A stretch of 41,990 nucleotides of DNA. It comes from Fidelibacterota bacterium. GTDB lineage: Bacteria; Fidelibacterota; Fidelibacteria; Fidelibacterales; Fidelibacteraceae. The position numbers were made by a program, and so were the translations under genes. The notes beneath the pieces are model-generated. The model made no database searches and had not been told where the DNA came from. It was given only the letters and a program-made list of their open reading frames with translations. How positions within the stretch are numbered: the first letter of the stretch is position 1; every line of letters starts with the position of its first letter. The stretch is taken from assembly GCA_018400915.1 (NCBI GenBank), contig JAGYLW010000005.1, positions 1 to 41,990 on the forward strand, written 5' to 3'. Below are positions 2,684 through 41,161 of this stretch, in pieces.

Positions 2684-3919
2684 TCAGATCTCGGTGCCGT
2701 CCGGTATCGTCACATCCTTCTTGACGACGACGATCCCGTCGCGGATGCAGTAGCTGTCCGTTTCCCGTTCGCTGACCTTGTCTTTATTGATGATCTTTAC
2801 GTTCTTACCGATGCGTGCGTTCTTGTCGACGATCGCCTTCCTGATCACGGTGTTCTTCCCGATGCCGAGCCGAATGCTGCCCGGATTCTCCGTCTCAAAA
2901 TAATCGTTTCCCATAATGTAGGAATCGTATATTTCCGCACCTTCCTGCACCACGGAACGAATCCCCAGTATGCTGTTCGTTAAATACTTCGCCTTCACGA
3001 GGGCACCGTCATTGATGAGCGAATCCCGCACGTGTGCATTATGCACCCGGGAACCCGGCAGCATGCGGGCATGCGTGAACATCGGGAAATTCTCATCGAC
3101 AAAACGGAATTTCGGCTTCATCTTCGTTAGATTAATATTCGCACGGTAAAAGGCGTCAATGGTCCCGATGTCCTCCCAGTAGTCCTTGAAAAAGAACGCC
3201 ATGACCTTGTAATTTTCAATGGCGGCGGGAATGATATCCCCGCCAAAATCATCTTCACGGATCTCAAGCAGCGTTCTGGACAATGTTTCGCGGTTAAAAA
3301 CATAGATGCCCATTGAACCCAGATAAGGGCGGTCCGGATCACCGGTCGGACTTTTCATTCTGTCGAGCGTTTCCGCATCCTTGGGTTTTTCGGCGAATTC
3401 CACAATATGGCCTTTGGCATTCACTTTCAGAATGCCGAAACTTTTTGCCTCTTCCCTGCTCACCGGTTTCACGGATATCGTAATATCCGCTCCGGAATCC
3501 CGGTGCTGCTCAACAAAGTCATGATAATTCATGCGGTACAGATGATCGCCGGCCAGGATCAGGTACTGGTCGAAACGGTAGTTCTCAAAATGGTTCAGAT
3601 TGTGCCTGACGGCATCCGCGGTGCCCTGGTACCAGTTCATATTGTCGATGGTCTGCGAAGCCGCGAGCACCTCCAGGAAACCGTCCGTAAAATTATCCAG
3701 TTTGTAGGTCTGGTTGATATGCCGGTGCAGGGATTCGCTGTTGAACTGCGTCAGGATATAGATCTTCCGGATATTGGAATTCAGGCAGTTGCTGATGGGA
3801 ATATCGATCAGGCGGTATTTCCCGCCGATGGGAACGGCGGGTTTGGACCGTACCGTTGTCAGCGGAGCCAGCCTTGTACCTCTTCCTCCCCCGAGAATAA
3901 GACTCAGTACTTTTCGCAT
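2684..3919 (-). CDS. glgC: Glucose-1-phosphate adenylyltransferase (ADP-glucose pyrophosphorylase)
   Basis: A 411-residue enzyme making ADP-glucose from glucose-1-phosphate and ATP, the committed step of bacterial glycogen synthesis. The pyrophosphorylase signature GGGRGTRLAPLT (residues 10-21) is followed by RSKPAVPIGGKYRLID, by GTADAVR and by the metal-binding GDHLYRM. Further on are the sugar-binding FAEKPKD and GSMGIYVF. The C-terminal third contains the hexapeptide left-handed beta-helix (IGKNVKI and neighbours). Length is normal for the family (about 400-430). Start ATG at 3919 follows AAAGGAG. It is the last gene of an apparent rnz-comEB-LolA-like-glgC transcript. No glycogen synthase or branching enzyme is in the window. 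Confidence 0.95.
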   Translation of the reverse strand: MRKVLSLILGGGRGTRLAPLTTVRSKPAVPIGGKYRLIDIPISNCLNSNIRKIYILTQFNSESLHRHINQTYKLDNFTDGFLEVLAASQTIDNMNWYQGTADAVRHNLNHFENYRFDQYLILAGDHLYRMNYHDFVEQHRDSGADITISVKPVSREEAKSFGILKVNAKGHIVEFAEKPKDAETLDRMKSPTGDPDRPYLGSMGIYVFNRETLSRTLLEIREDDFGGDIIPAAIENYKVMAFFFKDYWEDIGTIDAFYRANINLTKMKPKFRFVDENFPMFTHARMLPGSRVHNAHVRDSLINDGALVKAKYLTNSILGIRSVVQEGAEIYDSYIMGNDYFETENPGSIRLGIGKNTVIRKAIVDKNARIGKNVKIINKDKVSERETDSYCIRDGIVVVKKDVTIPDGTEI

Positions 3920-36512: not shown

Positions 36513-37540
36513 CCTTCACTCCCTGATGTTAATTTCAAATTCGGCACCGCGGGTACCTCCATGCTGGAAAACATGCCTTTGCGGTAATACATCACCCCGG
36601 TGGCGGCGATCATGGCGGCATTATCGGTACAGTACTCCAGCGGCGGATAGTATAAACGCAGGTTTTTCCGCTCCGCGGTCTTTCCCAGGACCTCTCTTAA
36701 ACGCCGGTTCGCGGCAACGCCGCCCGCCAGCACGACCTTTTTATGACCGCTGCGTTTTACCGCCCGGCGGAGTTTTTCATCGAGCACGTCAACGACCGCT
36801 TCCTGAAAACCGGCGGCAATATCCGCTTTATCTCTGTCGGTAATGTGCTTCTTTTGGTTGACGTAATGCAGGACTGCCGTTTTCATACCGCTGAAGCTGA
36901 AGTCCAGGCTCCCTGCCTCCAGCAGGGAACGCGGAAAACGCACTGCATTCCGGTTGCCGGAATCAGAGAGGGTATCGATCACCGGACCGCCGGGGTACCC
37001 GATCTTCAGGAGGCGGGCGGTCTTGTCAAATGATTCTCCGGCAGCATCGTCACGTGTCGAACCGAGGATCTCAAAATCCCGCAGTCCGCGCACATCCACC
37101 AGCATCGTATGACCGCCGGAGACAAGAAGGCAAAGGAAGGGGGGCTCAAGTTCCGGAAATTCCAGCATGGGTGCATAAAGGTGCGCCTCAATGTGATTCA
37201 CCGCGATCAGGGGAATATTTTGCGCCAGGGCAAAGCCCTTCGCATAATTCAGCCCCACCAGAAGCGCTCCCATCAGCCCGGGTCCGCAGGTCACGGCAAC
37301 CGCATCGATCTCCGCGGGACGGCAGCCGCATTGATCAAAGGCGGATTCCACTACCTGTGAAATGGCATGTTCATGGGCGCGGCTGGCCAGTTCCGGAACC
37401 ACGCCGCCGTATTTTTTGTGGATCATCTGGGAATATACGATATGGGATCTTACGTCAAAACCGCTGAGAACGGCTGCGCTGGTCTCATCGCAGGATGATT
37501 CAATCCCGAGGATACAGGGATGTGTTTTTTTTTTATTCAT
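36509..37540 (-). CDS. tsaD: tRNA N6-adenosine threonylcarbamoyltransferase
   Basis: A 343-residue ASKHA-fold enzyme that transfers the threonylcarbamoyl group to A37 of ANN-decoding tRNAs, with TsaB and TsaE (not in this window). GIESSCDETSAAV at the N-terminus, the metal ligands in NHIEAHLYA (two His), SGGHTMLV, GESFDKTARLL, DFSFSGMKTAV and AGGVAANRRLRE are all standard. TsaD is universal and often sits at unrelated operons; here it is locked between ybbR and aroF by overlaps of 8 and 4 bases. Confidence 0.97.
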   Translation of the reverse strand: MNKKKTHPCILGIESSCDETSAAVLSGFDVRSHIVYSQMIHKKYGGVVPELASRAHEHAISQVVESAFDQCGCRPAEIDAVAVTCGPGLMGALLVGLNYAKGFALAQNIPLIAVNHIEAHLYAPMLEFPELEPPFLCLLVSGGHTMLVDVRGLRDFEILGSTRDDAAGESFDKTARLLKIGYPGGPVIDTLSDSGNRNAVRFPRSLLEAGSLDFSFSGMKTAVLHYVNQKKHITDRDKADIAAGFQEAVVDVLDEKLRRAVKRSGHKKVVLAGGVAANRRLREVLGKTAERKNLRLYYPPLEYCTDNAAMIAATGVMYYRKGMFSSMEVPAVPNLKLTSGSEG

Positions 37541-38613: not shown

Positions 38614-38648
38614 AATAAAAAAGCCGCTCTTTCCGGAGCGGCTTTTTC
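38614..38648 (-). terminator. Strong rho-independent terminator after rpsA
   Basis: An inverted repeat AAGCCGCTC/GAGCGGCTT with a short loop (bases CGGAAA on the minus strand), flanked by A-runs on one side and T-runs on the other, so it could act in both directions. On the minus strand it reads stem-loop then TTTTTTATTTTA, and it ends the cmk-rpsA transcript. It lies about 20 bases past the TAA at 38666-38668, not past the rpsA stop at 38984, which is evidence that the region between is part of the original coding unit. Confidence 0.85.
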
Positions 38649-38665
38649 TGTGAACGTTATACCGT

Positions 38666-38983
38666 TTACGCCTGGTCTTTTTCCTTTTCTTCCGGTCCTG
38701 TTTCCGTTTCCATTCCTGTTTCGCTGTCTTCTGCTTCTTCCGGTCCTGTCTCTTTGCTGTCGGAGGTCTTTTTTACTTTTTTAGCGGCAGGAGCTTCCTT
38801 TGCGGATTTCGCCTCCTTTTTCGCTTCTTTTTTTTCGGTCGTTTTTTCCACTGTCTTTTCCGCTTCGGGTTCCGTTCCTTCGCCGGAGGCTTCTTCCGCT
38901 TTCTTTACGGCTGTTTTTGCTTTGGTTCGCTTGCGGTTTTTGCAGTCTCCGTTTCAGGTTCTGGTTCTGGTTCAGGTTCTGGT
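38666..38983 (-). pseudogene. rpsA: Probable displaced C-terminal tail of ribosomal protein S1
   Basis: Directly downstream of the rpsA stop, and in the same frame, the sequence becomes open again from about 38923 to a TAA at 38666-38668. It reads as Lys/Glu/Ala-rich protein (KAKTAVKKAEEASGEGTEPE, then EKTTEKKEAKKEAKSAKEAP, ending PEEKEKDQA), very like the existing S1 tail. Between 38984 and about 38920 this frame has TGA codons, while the +1 frame reads a (Glu-Pro)n run followed by ETETAKTASEP. One extra G in GGG near 38992 and one missing base near 38920 would join everything into an 831-residue S1. It might instead be a sequencing or assembly error, or a real recent pair of indels. A separate 61-residue gene from ATG 38851 is less likely, as it lacks a clear ribosome site. 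Confidence 0.6.
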
Positions 38984-38988
38984 TCAGG
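38953..38988 (-). repeat. Hexanucleotide repeat at the rpsA stop codon
   Basis: Six tandem units of CCTGAA or CCAGAA (minus strand), encoding Glu-Pro repeats in the +1 frame but TGA in the annotated rpsA frame. The rpsA stop codon is inside the first unit. Unit slippage would change length by multiples of three, so it would not by itself explain the frame change. Confidence 0.85.
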
Positions 38989-41161
38989 TTCCCAGTTTAG
39001 GTTCTTTCGGCCTTTTCTTTTGTTTGGCGTCGCTTTTTTCCACTTTCTCTTCAGGATCCGCTTTGCTTTTCTTTTCCTGGAACTTGTTCAGGACATTATC
39101 CGGAATTTCAATTTTCTGAGTGAAGTCTTCCTGTTTGGCCATAACCCTGGCAATATCCTTGTCGTCTTCGGAAAGGCTCAGGTCTTCACTGGCCAGCACG
39201 ATCTTGCGATCATCCGGCCGCACTTCCACGACCCGAAGCTCAAGTTCATCTCCGACATTGATATTGCGTGTGTAATCACGTTTTTCCTTCTTGGACTTAT
39301 TGTAGAGGGGAACGATCGCCTCTACTTCCTCGCCTTCAATGGTCATGATGATCCCTTTATCGAGGATCTTCAGGACATTGGCCTTGACCATTTTCCCGGG
39401 TTTGTATTTTTTCTCCAGCGCTTCCCAGGGATTGGGCTTCAGCTGTTTATATCCGAGGGAGATCTTCCGGGCTTCGCTGTTGATGTCCAGGATGACCACA
39501 TCGATCTCCTGATCCTTCTGCAGGACCTCTTTCGGATGGCGTACCACCTGTGTCCAGGAAAGGTCCGAGACATGGACGAGCCCGTCAATCCCTTCCTCGA
39601 TCTCAACAAAGGCGCCGAACTGGGTCAGGTTGCGCACCACGCCGCGTACTTTCATACCCGGAGCGTACTTCTTTTCCAGCGCTTCCCAGGGATCCGGCTG
39701 CAGCTGTTTGACACCGAGCGAGATTTTCCTGTCGTGAGCATCAATATCCAGGACCTTGGCCTCGATCTCATCATTGATCTGATAGATCTCCGAGGGGTGT
39801 TTGATGTGCTGTGTCCAGCTCATCTCCGAAATATGGACCAGGCCCTCGACGCCCTTTTCCAGTTCCACGAAAACGCCGTAGTTGGTGATCGAGACCACCC
39901 GGCCTTTGACAACGGAGTCAATGGGGTATTTTTGTTCGATATCTTCCCAGGGATGCGGCTCGAGCTGCTTCAGTCCGAGTGACACGCGCTGCCGTTCGGT
40001 ATTGTAATCAATTACCTTCACTTCCACCACGTCATCGATGGAAAGCATTTCCGAGGGGTGCTTGATGCGGCCCCAGGACATGTCCGTGATGTGCAGAAGT
40101 CCGTCAACACCGCCGAGATCGATAAAAGCGCCAAAATCGGTGATATTTTTTACACGGCCTTTGAGCACCTGATCGACCTGGATCTGGCTCAGCAATTCCT
40201 CGCGTTTTTCTTTCAGGGCTTCTTCAAGGATCTCCTTGCGGCTTACCACGATATTTTTGCGGGCCTCGTTCAGCTTCACGATCTTTAATTCCATGGTCTT
40301 GCCGACATAGGAATCAAAATCGATCACCGGACGCACATCGATCTGTGAACCGGGAAGGAAACCTTCGACACCGCCGAGATCAACGACCATACCGCCTTTG
40401 ATCCTTTTGATGACATAGCCTTCAATAATGCCGTCTTCCTCATAAACTTCTTTGATACGGTCCCAGGCACGCAGGAAATCCGCTTTCTTCTTTGAAAGGA
40501 TCAGCTGCCCCTTGCGGTCCTCGATCTTATCTACATAAATCTCAATTTCATCACCAAGTTCAGGAACATTATTCCCGAATTCTTCAAGCGGGATCAGTCC
40601 TTCCGATTTAAAACCGATATCCACGACCACCTCTTTGTCCGTGATGCGGATCACGTGTCCGTTCACACGCTCGTTATTGCTGAACTTGTTCAATGTTTTT
40701 TCATACATCTCTTCAAGTTCGGGATTGACTTCATGTTCATCCCCGGATTTAACGTCCTCGCGTTTTACGACAGCGATCTGATCATAGATGTCGCCGGCAT
40801 TTTTTTTATCAGCCTCAGTTGCCGGTACATCGTCAGAAACTTCTTCTCCGCCTTTTTCGTCTGCGGTCTTGTCCGCTTCTTCCGGAGCTTCCTCCGAGAC
40901 CGCTTCGGATTTCAGGTCCTCCTTCGTGGCTTTCTCTGCGGATTCTTCCGTATTGACTTCTTTCTCCGCTTCTTCAGCCGCCGTTTCTGTTTCCTCTGTG
41001 CCTGTTTCCTCTGCCTTTTCAGCGGAAGTGCCTTCTGCGGAAGTTTCTTCTTTTTTCATCGCTTCAACATCTCCGGTCCGGTCTTCCTGTGCTTCCGTTA
41101 CTTCCCGGGTGTCTTCGCTCTGAGGGTTTTCGGGTTCTACTTTTTTTAACTCTTCAGCCAT
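38984..41161 (-). CDS. rpsA: 30S ribosomal protein S1, six S1 domains with acidic N-terminal extension; C-terminus possibly frameshifted
   Basis: A 725-residue protein that binds mRNA on the 30S subunit during initiation. Residues 1-160 are a very acidic, low-complexity extension rich in Glu, Ala, Thr and Lys. Six S1 domains follow, starting near 165, 246, 333, 417, 504 and 589; domains 3-5 carry the canonical GAFVxLxxGVxGLVHISxMSW pattern, with linkers of the form KQLxPxPWEALEKKY. Domains 1, 2 and 6 are more divergent, as in other bacterial S1. The tail from 690 is Lys/Glu-rich and stops within a hexanucleotide repeat; see the entry for 38666-38983. The start directly abuts the cmk stop, with GGAGG inside cmk. 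Confidence refers to gene identity; the 3' boundary is doubtful. Confidence 0.93.
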   Translation of the reverse strand: MAEELKKVEPENPQSEDTREVTEAQEDRTGDVEAMKKEETSAEGTSAEKAEETGTEETETAAEEAEKEVNTEESAEKATKEDLKSEAVSEEAPEEADKTADEKGGEEVSDDVPATEADKKNAGDIYDQIAVVKREDVKSGDEHEVNPELEEMYEKTLNKFSNNERVNGHVIRITDKEVVVDIGFKSEGLIPLEEFGNNVPELGDEIEIYVDKIEDRKGQLILSKKKADFLRAWDRIKEVYEEDGIIEGYVIKRIKGGMVVDLGGVEGFLPGSQIDVRPVIDFDSYVGKTMELKIVKLNEARKNIVVSRKEILEEALKEKREELLSQIQVDQVLKGRVKNITDFGAFIDLGGVDGLLHITDMSWGRIKHPSEMLSIDDVVEVKVIDYNTERQRVSLGLKQLEPHPWEDIEQKYPIDSVVKGRVVSITNYGVFVELEKGVEGLVHISEMSWTQHIKHPSEIYQINDEIEAKVLDIDAHDRKISLGVKQLQPDPWEALEKKYAPGMKVRGVVRNLTQFGAFVEIEEGIDGLVHVSDLSWTQVVRHPKEVLQKDQEIDVVILDINSEARKISLGYKQLKPNPWEALEKKYKPGKMVKANVLKILDKGIIMTIEGEEVEAIVPLYNKSKKEKRDYTRNINVGDELELRVVEVRPDDRKIVLASEDLSLSEDDKDIARVMAKQEDFTQKIEIPDNVLNKFQEKKSKADPEEKVEKSDAKQKKRPKEPKLGT

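Follow-up and report, generated by a model that had tools for sequence, protein, structure and literature searches.

Where does ribosomal protein S1 end in this member of the Fidelibacterota? The window, by which we mean the whole stretch of 41,990 bases analysed here, is contig C150 in the draft assembly of an uncultured bacterium (1.72 Mb, 204 contigs, 87.7% complete). Its minus strand carries an rpsA gene whose reading frame stops in the middle of a hexamer repeat, with coding sequence continuing beyond the stop. Is the S1 of this organism truncated, is it recoded, or is the assembled sequence itself at fault?

The S1 gene and its interrupted tail

The readable protein has multiple S1 RNA-binding domains, PF00575 being matched in six stretches (Pfam, E 2.7e-86), all of them inside the 725-residue product and upstream of the break (Table 1). 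In the best segment it is 76-87% identical to the S1 of five named Ca. Neomarinimicrobiota MAG loci. The neighbourhood agrees, as the type of ORF that lies before S1 is common to the window and locus L005, and the start of the protein downstream is of a type seen in L003-L007; judging by their sequence, we take these neighbours to be a cytidylate-kinase-like (cmk-like) ORF and the start of a membrane protein. The N-terminal region of S1 (40787-41161, minus strand), which is acidic and low-complexity over roughly 125 residues, is a single open frame here.

Table 1. Features at the 3' end of rpsA (positions in the window)
Feature	Position	Strand	Basis and remarks
rpsA, ribosomal protein S1 as readable	38984..41161	-	ORF, 725 aa; S1 repeats and first part of charged tail
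GGG run, most likely first shift site (+1)	38991..38993	-	codon model; posterior 0.86 at 38992
GAACCW hexamer array	38953..38991	-	Glu-Pro repeats in +1 frame
S1-frame stop TGA	38984..38986	-	inside hexamer array
Most likely return-shift site	38922..38928	-	codon model; posterior 0.74 at 38925, 0.16 at 38928, 0.05 at 38922
Rest of ancestral S1 tail, original frame	38666..38923	-	85 codons, then TAA (38668-38666); undecayed, codon usage as in tails
TAA closing +1 frame	38905..38907	-	frame reading
Intrinsic terminator of rpsA	38615..38642	-	hairpin fold; stem starts 23 nt after ancestral stop

A sequence-only reading of this DNA had placed the S1 stop inside an array of hexamers, and the details bear this out. 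The array has a periodicity of 6, 12 and 18, with matches up to 95%, and in the +1 frame it translates as EPEPEPEPEPEPETETAKTASEPKQKQP, Glu-Pro repeats that run, as that reading had said, into a stop of their own. Downstream the original S1 frame is again open, rich in Lys, Glu and Ala, up to the TAA at 38668-38666, which is where the Lys/Glu-rich stretch had been said to end. Read through, the gene spans (41161-38666+1)/3 = 832 codons including the stop, so that the 831 residues given for a restored S1 are correct, and the figure of about 106 residues for the shortening relative to the ancestral protein is right as well. The downstream tail also holds a run of eight A at 38828-38835 (minus strand), a possible indel hot spot that is nevertheless in frame in this assembly.

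How firm is the frame pattern? A codon model was trained on 719 codons, taken from the tails of seven relatives and from the acidic N-terminus of the window's own S1. Its scores for the S1 frame and the +1 frame, respectively, were +8.6 and -23.6 before the array, -63.0 and +10.0 over the array, and +48.5 and -72.6 downstream of it. The optimal path moves into the +1 frame at 38992 and back at 38925, for a gain of 37.6 nats over ending at the first stop. When the DNA past the stop was dinucleotide-shuffled 300 times, no shuffle reached this gain (maximum 1.0), and the shift sites were the same when the window's own N-terminus was left out of the training. The shifts of +1 and then -1 bracket the repeat, as the sequence-only reading had proposed, and the GGG run that it noted near the break is present, at 38991-38993 rather than at 38988-38995. 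In leave-one-out runs the model found a shift in 0/7 of the relatives' tails, two of which (L005 and L095) are mutually close, so that these are not seven independent tests. The 85 codons after the return shift are undecayed, with a mean log-odds of 0.53 nats per codon versus 0.41-0.93 in the relatives. Direct DNA alignment of the tails met too great a divergence to tell which base is extra or missing. The frame pattern is genuine in the sequence as given, and is not due to chance.

The S1 end in relatives

What do related genomes say about the original end of the gene? The genus has nine other genomes, seven of them with a readable S1 end (G001, G002, G003, G004, G006, G007 and G009), and in the comparison of C-termini that had been suggested at the outset, the tail of each of the seven is a single unbroken frame. 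L003-L007 appear identical to five of these seven sequences and are counted once. Among the 60 other genomes considered in all, six had no rpsA match and were left out (G005, G008, G014, G028, G044 and G047, the first two of the same genus), having given only weak matches to other S1-domain places. The survey of spacing and tail length thus comprises 54 other genomes and the window, with G035 running off its contig or stretch. The survey of leftover tails comprises 53 S1 genes including the window, and omits L106 (G035), whose S1 frame is cut by the end of the contig, and L037 (G012), whose S1 tail is a run of N and which had been set aside in advance; S1 tails may be hard to assemble, and the N in L037 may be masking.

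Among these 53 phylum genes the tail-like coding score after the stop is highest in the window, at 24.3 nats, the next being 13.9, 13.1 and 10.7, and some of the lower-scoring post-stop stretches seem to belong to the following gene. A comparable leftover tail is found in none of the 52 other readable genes, and the break is common to no relative.

The sequence-only reading expected a strong terminator about 20 bases past 38666, and a hairpin stem does begin there (folding z = -6.1). The stem lies 341 nt from the annotated stop, and among the same-genus genomes the distance from stop to stem is 23-25 nt in all seven with a readable S1 end. The rpsA stop-to-terminator spacing is nearly fixed in the genus (7/7) despite wide variation in the sequence and length of the tail. 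Outside the genus (n=47), a terminator-like match was found in 27 genomes and none in 19, while one ran off; 25 of the matches lie at 19-89 nt, and two, both with weak stems, at 262 and 315 nt. A simple terminator scan missed the rpsA terminator that hairpin folding and the spacing script show, probably, we would guess, due to the stem reaching into the T run. Because the relatives' tails are unbroken, and because the stop-to-terminator spacing fits only the stop at 38668-38666, the long frame to 38666 is well supported as the ancestral S1.

What broke the frame?

Since close relatives keep the tail intact, the break most likely stems from a flaw in the assembly or from a recent lesion, and not from new biology. 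Three options had been offered from the sequence alone: a pair of recent indels, a consensus error, and recoding. The last is not supported, as it is required in none of the seven relatives and neither site looks like a usual shift site. Between the first two we lean toward error over natural lesion, and regard a local consensus or strain-mixture error as the most likely cause, with a probability of about 0.58.

If so, the true S1 would most likely have about 831 residues, encoded without interruption up to the stop at 38668-38666, and some 176 of them would form a charged, presumably disordered tail behind the conserved core. In the assembly, a low-complexity Glu-Pro repeat would be flanked by two frame errors, each of one base and opposite in sign, at a distance of about 67 nt, and both probably arose together during consensus building of a low-complexity, perhaps strain-variable stretch. 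The second shift could not repair the protein in a living cell because it lies downstream of the first stop, and two close lesions together with 85 undecayed codons suggest one correlated cause. We infer that this cause lay in the consensus and not in the cell. The break falls in low-complexity DNA, at a tandem repeat, and the gene is intact in all seven same-genus relatives; both points count for an error.

Other observations count against an error. The shift sites are at GGG and at short A runs, not at long homopolymers. The genome assembly contains no other exact copy of the array that could mislead an assembler: one search returned only the array itself, and another gave five overlapping matches within the array and one match with three mismatches on contig C161, with no donor or decoy among them. 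As the array is unique in the genome assembly, it is unlikely that two copies were confused with each other inside this genome; the array-region sequence could still derive from a strain mixture. Nor was a raised frame-break rate, which would support an error but is not required by one, found elsewhere in the assembly: a scan of a 184,250-base sample, 69,691 bases of which were covered by homology, gave 0 breaks, although it is blind to unconserved low-complexity tails. That scan dropped shadow ORFs; two frame-break candidates within the window, at 3919/3962 and 37533-37540, had proved to be antisense open frames across a gene border and were rejected.

The same lack of breaks, taken as a sign that the assembly is reliable, favors a second explanation, in which the sequence is right and a very recent natural lesion has cut S1 to 725 residues, whether by two indels, by a single complex event (a template switch, for example), or by a 69-nt insertion in the wrong frame. 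The cell would tolerate the loss, since the tail shows poor conservation while the S1 repeats, all before the break, are whole. Across the phylum the tail after the S1 core measures 9-181 residues; within the genus the range is 83-141, and a truncated window protein would have 70; because of the variation in the phylum, loss of about 106 residues need not be harmful. A natural lesion is a serious contender, though we think it somewhat doubtful, for it must place two events within about 67 nt and yet leave 85 downstream codons without decay, and no comparable leftover tail is seen in the other readable S1 genes. A single foreign insert meets a further difficulty at its left border, where, by eye, GAACCT at 39004-38999, upstream of the array, keeps to the S1 frame, and the hexamers of the array are displaced from that register by exactly one base.

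Might S1 instead always have ended near 38984, the frame beyond being a chance opening in purine-rich 3' untranslated DNA? Such DNA is poor in stops, and the other two frames are each also open over long parts, but the tail-like composition far exceeds that of the shuffles, the post-stop score stands well clear of those of the 52 other S1 3' flanks (24.3 versus 13.9 for the next), and the 23-nt spacing fits; the idea is already strongly contradicted and must be judged very improbable.

Least credible of all is recoding. The DNA would then be correct, and either the ribosome or RNA polymerase would slip by +1 at the GGG/TGA and by -1 near 38925, two opposite events around the Glu-Pro array that would yield an 831-residue S1 with a Glu-Pro insert and make tail length switchable among products of 725, about 751 (first shift only) and about 831 residues. 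In its favor, the Glu-Pro segment scores well in the +1 frame (+10 nats, against -63 for the S1 frame), and coding character persists in the last part of the tail. Against it, two opposite shifts are needed in one gene, the frame change is conserved in none of the seven same-genus relatives, and, by eye and by the usual rules of frameshifting, ACC, GGA or CTG tRNAs would not re-pair well at the +1 site, the return site is only a weak A AAA CAG, and the runs at both sites are too short for polymerase slippage. Inspection by eye gave no convincing slippery site, Rfam had no match at the locus, and a literature search found no paper linking rpsA, Marinimicrobia and frameshifting.

Implications and comparison with known systems

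The cause of the break is probably mundane, and the locus serves mainly as a warning: S1 as annotated here probably lacks about 106 residues. The near-fixed spacing of 23-25 nt between stop and terminator in the genus offers an easy means of recognizing broken 3' ends. Should reads bear the sequence out, the locus would capture an essential ribosomal protein in the course of losing its tail.

How does the locus compare with known systems? It shares with other Ca. Neomarinimicrobiota rpsA genes the Pfam S1 repeats, the acidic N-terminal region and the charged tail, and differs in that its tail is broken by two frame changes, whereas the relatives' tail is a single open frame. Programmed ribosomal frameshifting, of which the +1 shift of prfB and the -1 shift of dnaX are examples, resembles it in that coding continues past a stop in another frame; in the present case, however, there is no conserved site, no good slippery sequence is seen by eye, and two opposite shifts would be needed. 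Indel errors in draft assemblies fragment genes, as treated for long-read assemblies in PMC12007338. As in such cases, a short indel here would give a premature stop with coding continuing in another frame; unlike them, the window has two opposite indels that bracket a hexamer array, off long homopolymers.
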